From a virus: 31,561 nucleotides of DNA. The translations under genes were made by a program, and so were the position numbers. Below the pieces are notes generated by a model. The model saw nothing but the letters and a program-made list of their open reading frames with translations, was not told where the DNA came from and did not search any database. Every line of letters starts with the position of its first letter. Positions within the stretch are counted from its first letter, which is position 1. The stretch spans positions 1 to 31,561 of IMG/VR virus record IMGVR_UViG_3300043568_000149. One strand, 5' to 3'. Of the stretch, positions 13,296 to 27,370 are shown in pieces.

Positions 13296-13655
13296 ATGAT
13301 AGCAATACCACAAGGAGAAAATACTTCCATTTATATCACGCTAACCGACAAGAGAGAAACCACGAGCAACGTGTATATTTTTCTTTTCGAGCATGAGGTG
13401 ACAAAGGAGGAGGTTACCTTGACCTTAACGGATACGAGCGCATTCAAAGAGCGAGTTTCTGTTTTTGCAATTACCGAGGCTAACTTTGACGAAAGCACAA
13501 TTGGCTTTTGGCGGTACTATGTGACCCAAACGGAGAGCGGAGCGGATGTCATTGCAACGGGTAAAATGGAACTTACCGCACCTAACCTAAGCACGGCGGG
13601 GGTGGTAAGATATAACGGCTATAACGGGGACTTCAAAACCTACACAACCACATGA
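13296..13655 (+). CDS. Putative beta-rich structural protein upstream of portal
   Basis: A 119-aa protein starting MIAIPQGENTSIYITLTD, rich in predicted beta strands, with motif TIGFWRYYVTQTES and ending in FKTYTTT. The frame is open from 13209, but that would put the start inside the terminator hairpin, so ATG 13296 is chosen. It ends overlapping the portal start as ATGA (13652-13655). Its position between tail tube and portal suggests a minor head-tail or decoration component. I do not recognise a family. Confidence 0.65.
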   Translation: MIAIPQGENTSIYITLTDKRETTSNVYIFLFEHEVTKEEVTLTLTDTSAFKERVSVFAITEANFDESTIGFWRYYVTQTESGADVIATGKMELTAPNLSTAGVVRYNGYNGDFKTYTTT

Positions 13656-15676
13656 TAAAATTTCTCAAGTTTGACCAAGTGCCCTTGCCCATTTACAAAG
13701 AAGTAAAGGGGAAGGATTACATTTTTTACGGGGAGCGTAATGATTACCCTAACTACCTTTTGAGGATTTACAATAACTCAGCCAAGCACAACGCAATCGT
13801 AACGGGTAAAGTCGACTACATTTGCGGGAATGGTTGGGGTGTAAAGACCGAGGATGAGATGGAGAAAGCCAAGGTCTTTGGCATGATTGACAAGGTCAAC
13901 AAAGAGCAAGAATCCTTGAATGAGTTGACGAATAAATTGGTGACCGACTTGACTATCTTTGGCGGTTACTATTTACAAGTAATTTGGACAAAGGCCACGG
14001 GCGAGATTGCCGAGCTTTATCACGTTGACTACTATAAGGTTCGCACGAACGCAGACAATAGCGAGTTTTACGTTTCCGATAATTGGATTAAAAACGATAA
14101 CGTTAACCCACGTCCCGACTTCGAGACTTACCCAGCGTTTGACCCGAACAATACCACGGGGTCGCAAATCCTTTACTTTAAAGAATACAGAGCGGGTGTA
14201 AATACCTACTCTTTACCCGACTATCGTGGTGCCATTTCTTACATCGAGCTTGATATCTCAATCGGTGAGTACCACTTGAACACCATTAATAATGGTATGT
14301 TCTCAAGCAAGCTAATCAACCTTAACGGGGGCAAGGTTAGCCAAGAGGAAGAGGACAGAATCGAGAGACAATTCCAAAGCAAATTCTCAGGCTCAAAGAA
14401 TGCGGGAAAATTCATGCTTGCCTTCAACGATAGCAAGGAGAACGAGCCATCAATTATCGACTTGAGCGGTACGGAATTGGACAAGCACTTTGACCTCTTG
14501 AACTTGACAGTTCAGCAAGAGATTTTTAGCGGTCACAAAATTACAAGCCCCATGCTTTTCGGCATCAAGACTGAGGGACAATTGGGAGGACGTAGCGAAT
14601 TGAGAGAGGCATATCAGCTATTCCAAAACACCTACGTTAATGCCAAGCAAAGAGCCTTGGAGGAGACCATCAATTACCTATATAAATTTAACGATGTCAC
14701 GGCCAAGTTGGAATTGAAAGCAACAGAGCCAATATCTTTTGAATTTAGCGAGGCAATCATCTCGCAAAACATGACTCAAGACGAGATCCGTGAGAAGCTA
14801 GGTTTGGCGGCTATCGAAAAGAAAGAAACCGCTGGCTCTCAAGACATCATCAACTCCTTGAATAGCTTATCTCCTTTGATTGCGACCAAGGTAGTCGAGA
14901 GCATGGATATAAACGAGTTGAGAACCTTGATTGGATTGGCTCCAAAGGTTGAGGTAATCACTCCCGAGGTAGCGCAAGAGCAAGAAATTATTACCTCTTT
15001 AGCCTTGAGCGACCAAATGCACTTGACTTGTTCCCACACGAAAAAGGACGAGGAAATCCTTGCCCTATTTGAAGGCAAAGGCTTCAGCCGTGACCGCTTC
15101 AAGGTAATACAAAACGACCGCATGGTTTTCTCTTCCTCAATGGATGAGTTCGTAAAACAAGAACTCTTTGCCGAGTACCAATTGAATGAGGTACAAAGAA
15201 AGATTTTGAAAGAAATCCAAAGCAATCCAAAGGTTACTATTCCACAAATCGCAGAGGCTACGGGAATCGATGAGGCTTCGGTTATTGGAAGGATTAACAC
15301 CTTGATAGATGATAACGTCTTGACCGAGGATATCAGCCGTGTTGGCTTGGTTACTCGCAAGATAACGAGAACTGGCGAGGCGGCTATCAAAAGGCTTCAA
15401 CCCTTAACCTCCTTCCGAGTGCTTTACTCTTATGAGTTGAGAAAAGATGCTCCCGCACTTCTTGCTGGTTCTCAATCGAGACCTTTGTGCGCAAGATTAA
15501 TGAAGGAGCAAATGCTTTTTACCCGTGAAGAAATCCAAAATATTTCCAATCAATTAGGCTACTCCGTTTTCCAATTATGCGGAGGGTGGTACACCAACCC
15601 GAACACGGGAGTGCGGACACCTTTTTGCCGACATGAGTGGAGAAGAAATGTAGTAGTAGAAAAGACAAGCCGATGA
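13652..15676 (+). CDS. Portal protein fused to winged-helix and MuF-like C-terminal domains
   Basis: A 674-aa protein. Residues about 1-440 look like a siphovirus portal: MIKFLKFDQVPLPIY, YIFYGERNDYPNYLLRIY, the helical LNELTNKLVTDLTIFGGYY and an SPMLFGIKTEGQLGGRSE segment. Portals form the dodecameric DNA channel at one head vertex. Residues about 510-575 read as a winged helix (NEVQRKILKEIQSNPKVTI, then an IAEATGIDEASVIGRINTL recognition helix). The end (residues about 600-667, with SRPLCARLMKEQMLFTREEI and FCRHEWRRNVV) resembles the capsid morphogenesis domain often fused to, or encoded after, portals. The length (674 versus about 400-500 aa) supports the fusion. It overlaps both neighbours by ATGA. 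Confidence 0.8.
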   Translation: MIKFLKFDQVPLPIYKEVKGKDYIFYGERNDYPNYLLRIYNNSAKHNAIVTGKVDYICGNGWGVKTEDEMEKAKVFGMIDKVNKEQESLNELTNKLVTDLTIFGGYYLQVIWTKATGEIAELYHVDYYKVRTNADNSEFYVSDNWIKNDNVNPRPDFETYPAFDPNNTTGSQILYFKEYRAGVNTYSLPDYRGAISYIELDISIGEYHLNTINNGMFSSKLINLNGGKVSQEEEDRIERQFQSKFSGSKNAGKFMLAFNDSKENEPSIIDLSGTELDKHFDLLNLTVQQEIFSGHKITSPMLFGIKTEGQLGGRSELREAYQLFQNTYVNAKQRALEETINYLYKFNDVTAKLELKATEPISFEFSEAIISQNMTQDEIREKLGLAAIEKKETAGSQDIINSLNSLSPLIATKVVESMDINELRTLIGLAPKVEVITPEVAQEQEIITSLALSDQMHLTCSHTKKDEEILALFEGKGFSRDRFKVIQNDRMVFSSSMDEFVKQELFAEYQLNEVQRKILKEIQSNPKVTIPQIAEATGIDEASVIGRINTLIDDNVLTEDISRVGLVTRKITRTGEAAIKRLQPLTSFRVLYSYELRKDAPALLAGSQSRPLCARLMKEQMLFTREEIQNISNQLGYSVFQLCGGWYTNPNTGVRTPFCRHEWRRNVVVEKTSR

Positions 15677-23161: not shown

Positions 23162-23181
23162 AAGCCCCCTTCGGGGGGCTT
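23162..23181 (+). terminator. UUCG-loop hairpin after 22651 gene
   Basis: A perfect 8-bp stem AAGCCCCC / GGGGGCTT with a TTCG loop lies 4 bases after the stop. The T tract is broken (CACTTACTT), so it may only partly terminate transcription. The stem and loop resemble terminators common in Bacteroidota. Confidence 0.6.
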
Positions 23182-24197: not shown

Positions 24198-24327
24198 TGA
24201 GGCCATGAAGGAGCAAATCTTTTTCCTATGGCAAGACCGACTTTCCGTCAAGGCCATTGCGATAAATGTGGGGCTTTCTTATACCGCAGTTTATCAAGAA
24301 TTAAAAAGAAGGTATTTAGTAGGTTAA
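24178..24327 (+). CDS. Small HTH protein
   Basis: A 49-aa basic protein starting MPRRKIDEAMKEQIFFLWQD, with a complete HTH unit (LSVKAIAINVGLSYTAVYQE) and a basic end. It resembles the resolvase-type or transposase-type HTH used alone as a small regulator. It lies directly upstream of the structured RNA element and replication initiator, so control of that region is possible. Confidence 0.6.
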   Translation: MPRRKIDEAMKEQIFFLWQDRLSVKAIAINVGLSYTAVYQELKRRYLVG

Positions 24328-24340
24328 TTGAAAAAAATGT

Positions 24341-24348
24341 TATATTTG
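24341..24348 (+). promoter_or_regulatory. Candidate -7 box driving the structured RNA
   Basis: TATATTTG matches TAnnTTTG exactly and is placed so that transcription would start at about 24354-24357, at the base of the first hairpin. No TTG at normal -33 spacing was found (nearest TTG ends 10 bases upstream), so an activator or phage sigma factor may be needed. Confidence 0.5.
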
Positions 24349-24352
24349 ATAA

Positions 24353-24385
24353 ATGATTGAAACATTTAAGAGGTCGGAGCCTTAG
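24353..24385 (+). CDS. Possible 10-codon leader ORF across hairpin 1
   Basis: ATG at 24353 gives MIETFKRSEP then a TAG stop at 24383-24385. The codons cover the GGTCGGAG loop, so a translating ribosome would block the loop-loop pairing. It would be leaderless from the predicted start, but normal if transcribed from upstream. It could also be chance. Confidence 0.25.
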   Translation: MIETFKRSEP

Positions 24386-24444
24386 ATGTTTTAAAGGTGA
24401 AAACCAACCCAGCCCCATCGCTCCGACCCGATTGGGGCTTTTTT
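24357..24444 (+). ncRNA. Predicted two-hairpin kissing-loop RNA / attenuator
   Basis: Hairpin 1 pairs 24357-24370 with 24381-24394: 14 continuous pairs including two G-U, with the 10-nt loop AGGTCGGAGC. A 16-nt linker follows (24395-24410), with a possible GGT-GAAA-ACC mini-hairpin. Hairpin 2 pairs AGCCCCATCG (24411-24420) with 24429-24439 (one bulged T), with the 8-nt loop CTCCGACC, then six T. All eight bases of loop 2 are complementary to 24372-24379 in loop 1. Both non-Watson-Crick pairs of hairpin 1 are G-U on this strand and would be A-C on the other. The RNA would be about 90 nt, ending at a terminator 10 bases before the replication gene. It may be a free small RNA or an attenuator. 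I do not recognise the class. Confidence 0.7.
24411..24444 (+). terminator. Intrinsic terminator upstream of replication initiator
   Basis: AGCCCCATCG pairs with CGATTGGGGCT (one bulge), a stem of 10 bp with loop CTCCGACC, followed by six T. It lies 10 bases before ATG 24455. The apical loop is complementary to an upstream loop (24372-24379), so folding upstream could change terminator efficiency. Confidence 0.85.
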
Positions 24445-24454
24445 ATTTCCTATT

Positions 24455-25171
24455 ATGAGCGGATGGATTAAAGTACACAGGCAATTGACCAACCATTGGA
24501 TTTGGGAGAAACCCGAATACCTCAAGTGGTGGATGGACATTTTGATGCAAGCCAACATCGAACCAAAGAGAGTTTTAATCAAGGGTCAAGTCATTGATGT
24601 AAATCGTGGCGAGGTGATTTACTCATACGATACATGGGCAAATCGCTGGAAAATTAGCAAGTCTAAGGTAGTACGCTTTTTAAAAATGCTCGAGAAAGAT
24701 TTAATGATTGAGCTAAAAAGCGAAACGATAACGACACGGCTAACTATCTGTAAATATGATACTTACCAAGGTGAGCGAAACGATAGTGAAACGCAAGTGA
24801 AACGCACACGATACGCAAGTGAAACGCAAGTGAAACCAACTAAAGAAGTAAAAGAATTAAAGAATGAAATAAATAAAGATAGCCTCCTCTCATTTGTAGA
24901 AATAGAAGCAGAGATGGCTAAGGAGAAACCATTGAAGAGACCATACTTTAAAAGGATGCAAGAGATATACAACCTAGATGATAACACCTTAAAAGAAGCA
25001 TTTAAGAAATGGTCAACCTTGAAGGAAGGAGAAGCAATGACAATCGACAAAGCGCAAAACTCCTTCAATCTTTATTTGCAGAATCAAAGTAAAAACAATA
25101 GCTACTCTGAAGGCGGAAAAGTAGAGCCACCTAAGTACGCAAAATCAACCCTTGAAAATAATTGGTGGTAA
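24455..25171 (+). CDS. Replication initiator-like protein (DnaD/DnaT type) containing the origin
   Basis: A 238-aa protein. Residues about 1-95 are a winged-helix domain of the phage replication organiser type: MSGWIKVHRQLTNHWIWEK, then VNRGEVIYSYDTWANRWKIS (the strand-helix part that binds DNA). Residues about 108-128 carry the repeat SETQVKRTRYA/SETQVK made by the iterons, then a Lys/Glu linker. A C-terminal helical domain (YFKRMQEIYNLDDNTLKEAF) ends in ENNWW and may contact helicase. The layout is like lambda O, with origin iterons inside the initiator gene. Helicase follows at 25482 with a small gene between. The gene ends TAATG with its neighbour. Confidence 0.75.
   Translation: MSGWIKVHRQLTNHWIWEKPEYLKWWMDILMQANIEPKRVLIKGQVIDVNRGEVIYSYDTWANRWKISKSKVVRFLKMLEKDLMIELKSETITTRLTICKYDTYQGERNDSETQVKRTRYASETQVKPTKEVKELKNEINKDSLLSFVEIEAEMAKEKPLKRPYFKRMQEIYNLDDNTLKEAFKKWSTLKEGEAMTIDKAQNSFNLYLQNQSKNNSYSEGGKVEPPKYAKSTLENNWW
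24772..24837 (+). repeat. Six tandem 11-bp iterons: candidate origin
   Basis: Six contiguous 11-bp units: TGAGCGAAACG, ATAGTGAAACG, CAAGTGAAACG, CACACGATACG, CAAGTGAAACG, CAAGTGAAACC. The consensus is CAAGTGAAACG. Spacing near one helical turn places all sites on one face of the DNA. They lie inside the initiator gene; three iterons (33 bp) equal 11 codons, giving the protein repeat SETQVK. An AT-rich tract follows at 24841-24882. Confidence 0.8.
24841..24882. other. AT-rich putative unwinding element next to iterons
   Basis: A 42-base tract dominated by A and T (TAAAGAAGTAAAAGAATTAA onward to AAATAAAGAT) directly follows the iterons, as in iteron-type origins where the initiator melts adjacent DNA. 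Confidence 0.55.
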
Positions 25172-26554: not shown

Positions 26555-27370
26555 ATGGATAATACTTTTAAAATAAATTGCATTTATAATGAAAGCAATT
26601 TGGAAACCATGAAAAGAATGCCTGATAATTTTATTGATTTGACTGTGACGTCACCTCCATACGATGACCTTCGAGAATACAATGGGTACTCTTTTCCATT
26701 TGAACCAATAGGAAAGGAACTTTACAGAGTTACAAAAGAGGGAGGTGTCCTTGTTTGGATTGTTGGCGATGCAATAATCAATGGAAGTGAAAGCGGTACA
26801 AGTTTCAAGCAAGCCTTATTTTTTAAGGATTGCGGATTCAATATTCACGATACGATGATTTACTCAAAGACGCCAAGTTTCCCAGCCAAGAACGGAGATA
26901 AAAGGTATTCTCAATCTTTTGAGTATATGTTTATTTTAAGCAAGGGAAGCCCAAAAACTGCCAACCTTTTGAAGGATAGAAAAAACAAATGGGGCGGGCA
27001 TCAATCATGGGGAAATGCTTCGGTAAGATTAAAGAGTGGAGAGATTGTTGAGAAAGACAAAATCAATGTTCAAGAGTTTGGATATCGTTTCAACATTTGG
27101 GAGTATGCGACAGGAAAAGGAAACACCACAAGGGATGAAATAGCCTATCAGCACCCAGCAATGTTCCCCGAAAAATTAGCCGAAGACCATATCTTGACTT
27201 GGAGCAATGAGGGAGATTTAATTTATGATTGTTTTGGCGGTAGCGGTACTACTGCAAAGATGGCAAACAAATGGAAAAGGGATTGGGTGTTATCTGAAAT
27301 AAGTCCCGATTATGTCGATATAGCTAGAAAAAGAATTGAACCATACATTTCACAAACTCAACTATTTTAA
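26555..27370 (+). CDS. DNA methyltransferase (N6-adenine or N4-cytosine), beta class
   Basis: A 271-aa enzyme that transfers a methyl group from S-adenosylmethionine to DNA. Catalytic motif SPPY is at residues 33-36, and the SAM-binding motif DCFGGSGTT at residues 225-233. Motif IV before motif I marks the beta class. The last part (SEISPDYVDIARKRI) is typical of this family. No target recognition domain can be read from sequence. It may protect phage DNA from host restriction or time replication. A/T-rich codons suggest acquisition. A small membrane gene and a nuclease follow. Confidence 0.92.
   Translation: MDNTFKINCIYNESNLETMKRMPDNFIDLTVTSPPYDDLREYNGYSFPFEPIGKELYRVTKEGGVLVWIVGDAIINGSESGTSFKQALFFKDCGFNIHDTMIYSKTPSFPAKNGDKRYSQSFEYMFILSKGSPKTANLLKDRKNKWGGHQSWGNASVRLKSGEIVEKDKINVQEFGYRFNIWEYATGKGNTTRDEIAYQHPAMFPEKLAEDHILTWSNEGDLIYDCFGGSGTTAKMANKWKRDWVLSEISPDYVDIARKRIEPYISQTQLF

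Follow-up and report, generated by a model that had tools for sequence, protein, structure and literature searches.

A candidate leader RNA with complementary, covarying loops precedes a helicase-loader gene in Bacteroidota phages

Pairing between complementary hairpin loops controls replication in several plasmid families. ColE1 RNAI/RNAII and similar plasmid antisense copy-control systems act through kissing of loops on partners that come from opposite strands. In pT181-type attenuation by antisense RNA, a terminator lies before the replication gene, and the terminator and antiterminator pairings are mutually exclusive. In I-complex plasmids, a loop of the rep pseudoknot has its match at the start codon. 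In these plasmids (IncI, IncK, IncB/O), RNAI kisses stem-loop I of the rep leader, and loop changes alter compatibility (PMC10724649). In T4-related phages, RNA structure ahead of homing endonuclease genes limits their expression (PMC3014915).

Here we describe a phage element with both halves of a predicted kissing interaction in one RNA. The window, meaning the whole stretch analysed, is a 31,561-base virus record, and the element sits in it between an HTH-type reading frame that ends at 24327 and a gene that starts at 24455. An earlier note on this DNA had described a TAnnTTTG box, a 14-bp hairpin with two wobble pairs that are G-U on the + strand, and a terminator hairpin followed by six T; direct reading bears out all of this. 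TAnnTTTG is the -7 box consensus of Bacteroidota (PMC7366714). The features are as follows.

24341..24348, + strand: -7 promoter box TATATTTG (Bacteroidota consensus TAnnTTTG), from direct reading
24357..24394, + strand: hairpin 1, 14 bp, loop AGGTCGGAGC, from direct reading, folding and compensatory changes in relatives
24372..24380, + strand: X, the loop-1 segment GGTCGGAGC, predicted kissing partner 1
24396..24405, + strand: hairpin 2, GGU-GAAA-ACC, small, in the middle position, from folding
24411..24439, + strand: hairpin 3, the stem-loop of an intrinsic terminator, loop CTCCGACC
24420..24428, + strand: X', the terminator-loop segment GCTCCGACC, exact complement of X
24439..24444, + strand: T run (T6) of the intrinsic terminator, predicted 3' end
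24445..24454, + strand: 10-nt gap from terminator to start codon, too small for another promoter
24455..25171, + strand: DnaD-like helicase loader, 238 aa, behind the element (PHROG 2514, E = 3e-32)

The loops of hairpins 1 and 3 complement each other. Hairpin 1 consists of arms at 24357-24370 and 24381-24394 around a loop at 24371-24380, and the terminator hairpin has one bulged T and a loop at 24421-24428. The complementarity, earlier put at 8 nt, is one longer: X pairs with X' over 9 nt (24372-24380 with 24420-24428), and the outermost of these pairs competes with the closing pair of the terminator. What was first described as a 16-nt linker between the two hairpins holds small hairpin 2, which is kept in relatives. 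A 110-nt stretch covering the element folds with z = -3.3, and one of 200 shuffles did as well. Scanning for a terminator with an upstream complement returned a single location in the window, the element at 24341-24444, and zero matches in the reversed or complemented window. A second exact copy of the 9-mer was found on neither strand of the 31.6-kb window.

Three other features of the window deserve record. The portal protein (13652-15676) is long, at 674 aa; its residues ~496-561, in the C-terminal part, weakly match helicase/unknown PHROG profiles and read like a winged-helix segment. An N6/N4 DNA methyltransferase (26555-27370) has its closest match in the phage collection, at 61%, in an uncultured 636-kb phage, followed by a Bacillus phage. 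A strong terminator-like hairpin, AAGCCCCCCGAAGGGGGCTT, lies on the - strand at 23162-23181, in the gap before 23309.

Comparison among close relatives supports both the structure and the loop pairing. With the window loader as query we recovered 62 viral loci, and most of those with closer loaders hold the same RNA plan at the same place; we call these close relatives group A. In all 22 distinct close relatives, X and X' are complementary over 7-8 nt with the two hairpins folded independently, and the promoter box TATATTTG or a near variant is present. Each of the 7-nt loop types of group A (GTCGGAG, GTAGGAG, GTGAGAG, GTGGAAG and GTGGTAG, to which L207 adds GTCGCAG) comes with a matching partner, and loops taken from different types usually pair over about 3 nt. 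The loops of homologs thus change with compensation, which is what the earlier note had proposed looking for. In hairpin 1, 6 of the 12 aligned pairs have changed with compensation, and a small middle hairpin is predicted in relatives too, with a sequence that differs from that of the window. Kissing pairs in group A were counted on folded loops; MAFFT shifts loop 1 of the GTGGAAG type by one base in alignment A6, whose hairpin 3 columns are poorly aligned between subgroups, and compensatory counts for the hairpin 3 stem were left out.

Loop identity can differ where the neighbouring protein hardly does. On the loader tree the loop type switches repeatedly, even between near-identical proteins, and X differs despite a near-same downstream protein between L026/L027 and L031 and between L004 and L010. 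Where the loader gene lies directly behind another gene, the element is absent (L033, L039, L043, L165 and others). At the DNA level the RNA is too variable to be followed far: a distant blastn of the locus against cultured phages returned a single short piece, inside a loader gene, and blastn of an HNH-type element against the same phages returned no match.

By sequence comparison, the window element belongs to a large class found in Bacteroidota phages. Other loci, whose loaders are more distant, carry another form of the plan, the loop-E branch (branch B): loop X tops a short hairpin, an A-rich linker follows, and in the terminator AGUA faces GAA, enclosing a 3-bp stem that carries loop X'. 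This sarcin-ricin/loop-E-like motif occurs in branch B only and is without counterpart in the window element; motifs resembling it also appear in branch B elements found through gene homology. A search with the loop-E terminator pattern returned at least 120 stretches. From these we took 61 distinct elements by pattern and promoter box, ignoring the loops, and asked how far the motif-defined apex can pair with the 30 nt nearest the promoter; among the matches listed, X and X' pair over at least 6 nt in 58 of the 61, against 4.7% for shuffled apices. An alignment of 65 elements, which were selected with complementarity and so inform only on the pattern of change, shows all 7 kissing pairs changed on both sides, while slid controls fall away. 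In alignment A4 the constancy of AGTAG...CGAAA is due to selection, being the search pattern itself. The linker between hairpin 1 and the terminator is A-rich there, with a recurrent UUAAAAA, and is perhaps a site of protein or tertiary contact. Covariance model R1, built on the loop-E branch, does not detect the window element, which implies that the two branches share a plan and not one alignable structure.

A general scan extended the class further. It gave 276 matches with a promoter in 2.66 Mb, corresponding to 120 distinct ones because loci overlap, against 1 in the reversed control; the loci had partly been fetched for the element. In most elements, 7-11 nt separate the promoter box from X. 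Across the class we counted about 86 X strings; their lengths differ and some are shortened versions of others, so the X types are fewer. These results bear on the most economical reading, an ordinary terminator with complementarity by chance. Terminators are common in phages, but the scan's excess over its control, even with overlapping and partly pre-selected loci, and the covariation of the loops leave this reading a practically negligible chance, and the comparative data refute it.

Some branches rearrange the loop code. In one, X and X' are exchanged, with GCTCTCAC in the first loop and GTGAGAGC in the terminator (L101, L157, L192, L223, L261, L263, L276, L278, L279, L293 near 520, L297 near 611, L341, L360 and L362). 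Its purine-rich loop is in the terminator, not in hairpin 1, and its surroundings are conserved, with GGTTC-X-ATTATAGAAC in hairpin 1 and a GTGAGAGC-type loop in the terminator. Another branch (L107, L225, L262, L274, L280) has GCGTAGGA or GCGTGAGA as X and a terminator with CCTACGC/CTCACGC. The window's loop GGTCGGAG and the related GGTAGGAG are seen again in loop-E elements, of different structure and ahead of other genes, at L397 (3889-3982) and L380 (1502-1596).

One branch carries X a third time. Where X mostly ends in CAG, an extra copy is found at the start codon or immediately before it and varies together with the others (GTTGCAG, GTCGCAG, AGTACAG, GTGCAG, AATGCAG, AAGCAG), and TCGCAGC occurs in another branch. 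A stretch of X of 6 nt or more recurs in the first 45 nt after the T run in 15 of the 130 elements, whereas permutation gives 1.8 on average and 6 at most. At least two of the 15 (L342, L204) seem due to chance, and X' is never present in that interval in the 130. In that branch, X' would have two possible partners.

Class-wide placement ties the element to the gene behind it. Of the 135 elements followed by enough sequence, 124 have the ATG of a reading frame of 50 or more codons no further than 40 nt from the T run, and the median distance from element to start codon is 11 nt. For the other terminators of these loci the figure is 59 of 183. Because elements precede an ATG so much more closely than ordinary terminators do, we take the element to be a leader, and this placement favours an attenuator or leader over a free-standing RNA. 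The earlier note had named an initiator downstream; a replication gene it is, though the window's product, with its ATG at 24455, is a helicase loader and not an initiator in the strict sense. Across the class, the genes behind the elements are often replication initiators, helicase loaders or HNH/GIY-YIG endonucleases. The 56 downstream proteins of the loop-E branch include 13 of DUF6291 (related to primosomal protein profiles), 9 NUMOD4-HNH endonucleases, at least 2 of NUMOD3/GIY-YIG type, 6 DnaD-like loader matches and about 5 matches to replication initiation profiles; these families overlap, and the remaining proteins have no recognised family. The recognisable genes fit types that need tight dosage: initiators, primosomal proteins, helicase loaders and homing endonucleases. 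The earlier reading is partly supported: its structural side stands, but it missed the middle hairpin, the third copy of the loop that one branch has, and the occurrence before endonuclease genes.

The downstream genes also weigh on two other explanations. The element adjoins a helicase loader, which would suit an element working as folded DNA, for instance an origin or a site for single-strand initiation. It also precedes endonuclease genes, and its AGUA/GAA internal loop, many + strand G-U pairs, promoter box and T run are RNA features, so a DNA role has a very slim chance. A free small RNA acting on other phage or host messages, with the adjoining gene incidental, would explain why the element has its own promoter box and terminator and why loops such as GTGAGAG and GTGGAAG recur in unrelated branches in both polarities. 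Tight placement before start codons speaks against it, as do the lack of any further exact target for X or X' in the window and the failure of copies within one genome to share loops; we give this reading only a small chance of being right.

The class includes cultured phages, several with more than one copy. Among Flavobacterium phages, the element occurs in 11b, elemoC_14-1A, tooticki6-1 (two), hattifnatt9-1 (three) and FCL-2, where it lies 16 nt before a replication initiation protein. Other cultured carriers are Cellulophaga phage phi19:3 (two), Olleya phage Harreka_1 and Tenacibaculum phage JQ; Polaribacter phage Leef_1 holds no convincing element, its sole 6-nt match being AT-rich. In every case seen, loops differ between copies within one genome. 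Likewise, seven loci (L293, L297, L321, L342, L357, L375, L422) have two general-scan matches each, always with different X, though the second L342 match is AT-rich and probably chance.

Different loops per copy, together with quick switching, suggest self-recognition and hence a copy sensor. Our best explanation, held at just under even confidence, is that the window element is the leader of the helicase-loader gene and gives a self-specific, attenuating, terminated RNA that acts as such a sensor. Most transcripts would stop at the terminator, making an RNA of about 90 nt the main product, and the downstream gene would depend on read-through, which yields its message. X' would be the active loop, with X in its own molecule, X in a sister molecule or, in one branch, the third X at the start codon as possible partners. 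Contact between X and X', in cis or between molecules, would set read-through or translation. As phage genomes multiply, terminated RNA would accumulate and kiss X or X' of nascent or read-through leaders, lowering expression of the replication gene or endonuclease. The loop sequence would serve as an identity tag, like the loop of a plasmid antisense RNA, but encoded on the target's own strand. Somewhat more tentatively, we propose that one sense-strand RNA holding both halves of a loop-loop code recognises its own copies, which would amount to incompatibility-like control of self and non-self without an antisense gene. Counting against the copy sensor, group A, the window element included, has no third X at the start codon.

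What comparison has shown is complementary, covarying loops in a promoter-terminator unit directly before a gene, and a strictly cis-acting element could give the same covariation. As a purely cis leader, the element would use kissing within one molecule to tune terminator strength or RNA stability, its loops drifting with compensation. Its position before the gene is in keeping with this, and the long unstructured linker of the loop-E branch allows contact inside one molecule. Exact complementarity of 7-8 nt across very many loops looks instead like selection for identity, and loops switch between near-identical phages and are unlike among the copies of one genome. Group A geometry also appears unfavourable: its hairpins lie so close that, by a rough estimate of about 32 stacked base pairs (near 90 Å) against 16 linker nucleotides, kissing in one molecule should need hairpin 2 opened. 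A dimer or trans contact is thus a serious option for group A, which might be chiefly a dimer, and we consider the purely cis reading unlikely, if well worth keeping in view.

Trans action of the kind that the copy sensor requires is also presupposed by a device for immunity or competition, in which a phage that is resident, or that infected first, would use its short RNA to silence the replication gene of incomers with the same loop, and diversity would reflect escape. Great loop diversity, repeated switching and the choice of replication genes as targets agree with this idea. Many carriers look virulent, however, and an R1 scan of 296 Bacteroidota genomes, run without a positive control among them, found zero copies and so no prophage source; we think the idea improbable.

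If the copy sensor is correct, many Bacteroidota phages tie expression of replication genes or homing endonucleases to recognition of their own RNA, and this might explain why interference occurs between some co-infecting phages but not between others. The class also offers a large natural set of matched loop pairs, with about as many X strings as counted above and cultured phages at hand, from which useful orthogonal RNA parts could be drawn.

The earlier note knew of no described class with this plan, and our searches agree. At the gathering threshold, Rfam 15 matched neither the window nor the elements in 33 representative loci, the only match being a tRNA in L411; the best sub-threshold matches of the window fall far below threshold, and we reject a known Rfam family as its identity on these covariance-model scores. 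Open-access papers yielded no description of such an RNA, and a term search of a 2025 review of phage-derived small RNAs found no mention of kissing loops, Bacteroidota phages or Flavobacterium phages. As far as the open-access literature and Rfam show, the RNA plan is undescribed; the mechanism is our reading of it.

Measured against described systems, the element shares covarying complementary loops with plasmid antisense copy-control RNAs and departs from them in strand, since X and X' lie on the same strand with one promoter box and one terminator. As in ColE1, the loop sequence would set self-recognition and replication would be under control, but both loops here belong to one RNA and the 3' partner is the terminator loop. 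As in a classical transcription attenuator, a terminator with its U run stands between promoter and gene start, and as in pT181-type attenuation it precedes a replication gene, but no antiterminator pairing that excludes the terminator stem is present: the complementarity of group A does not extend beyond the loops (the window element overlaps the closing pair by one base), so kissing and terminator can coexist, and the sequence sets no direction for a switch. The I-complex pseudoknot is likened to the branch with a third X at the start codon. The I-complex regulator is an antisense RNA without a built-in terminator loop as partner (PMC10724649), a loop that the phage element has. The hairpins of T4-related phages cover the ribosome binding site with a helix and have neither kissing loops nor a terminator (PMC3014915), whereas the phage element has both, the kissing being predicted. 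By analogy of parts and proposed action, the plasmid antisense systems are the nearest working analogue of this phage RNA.
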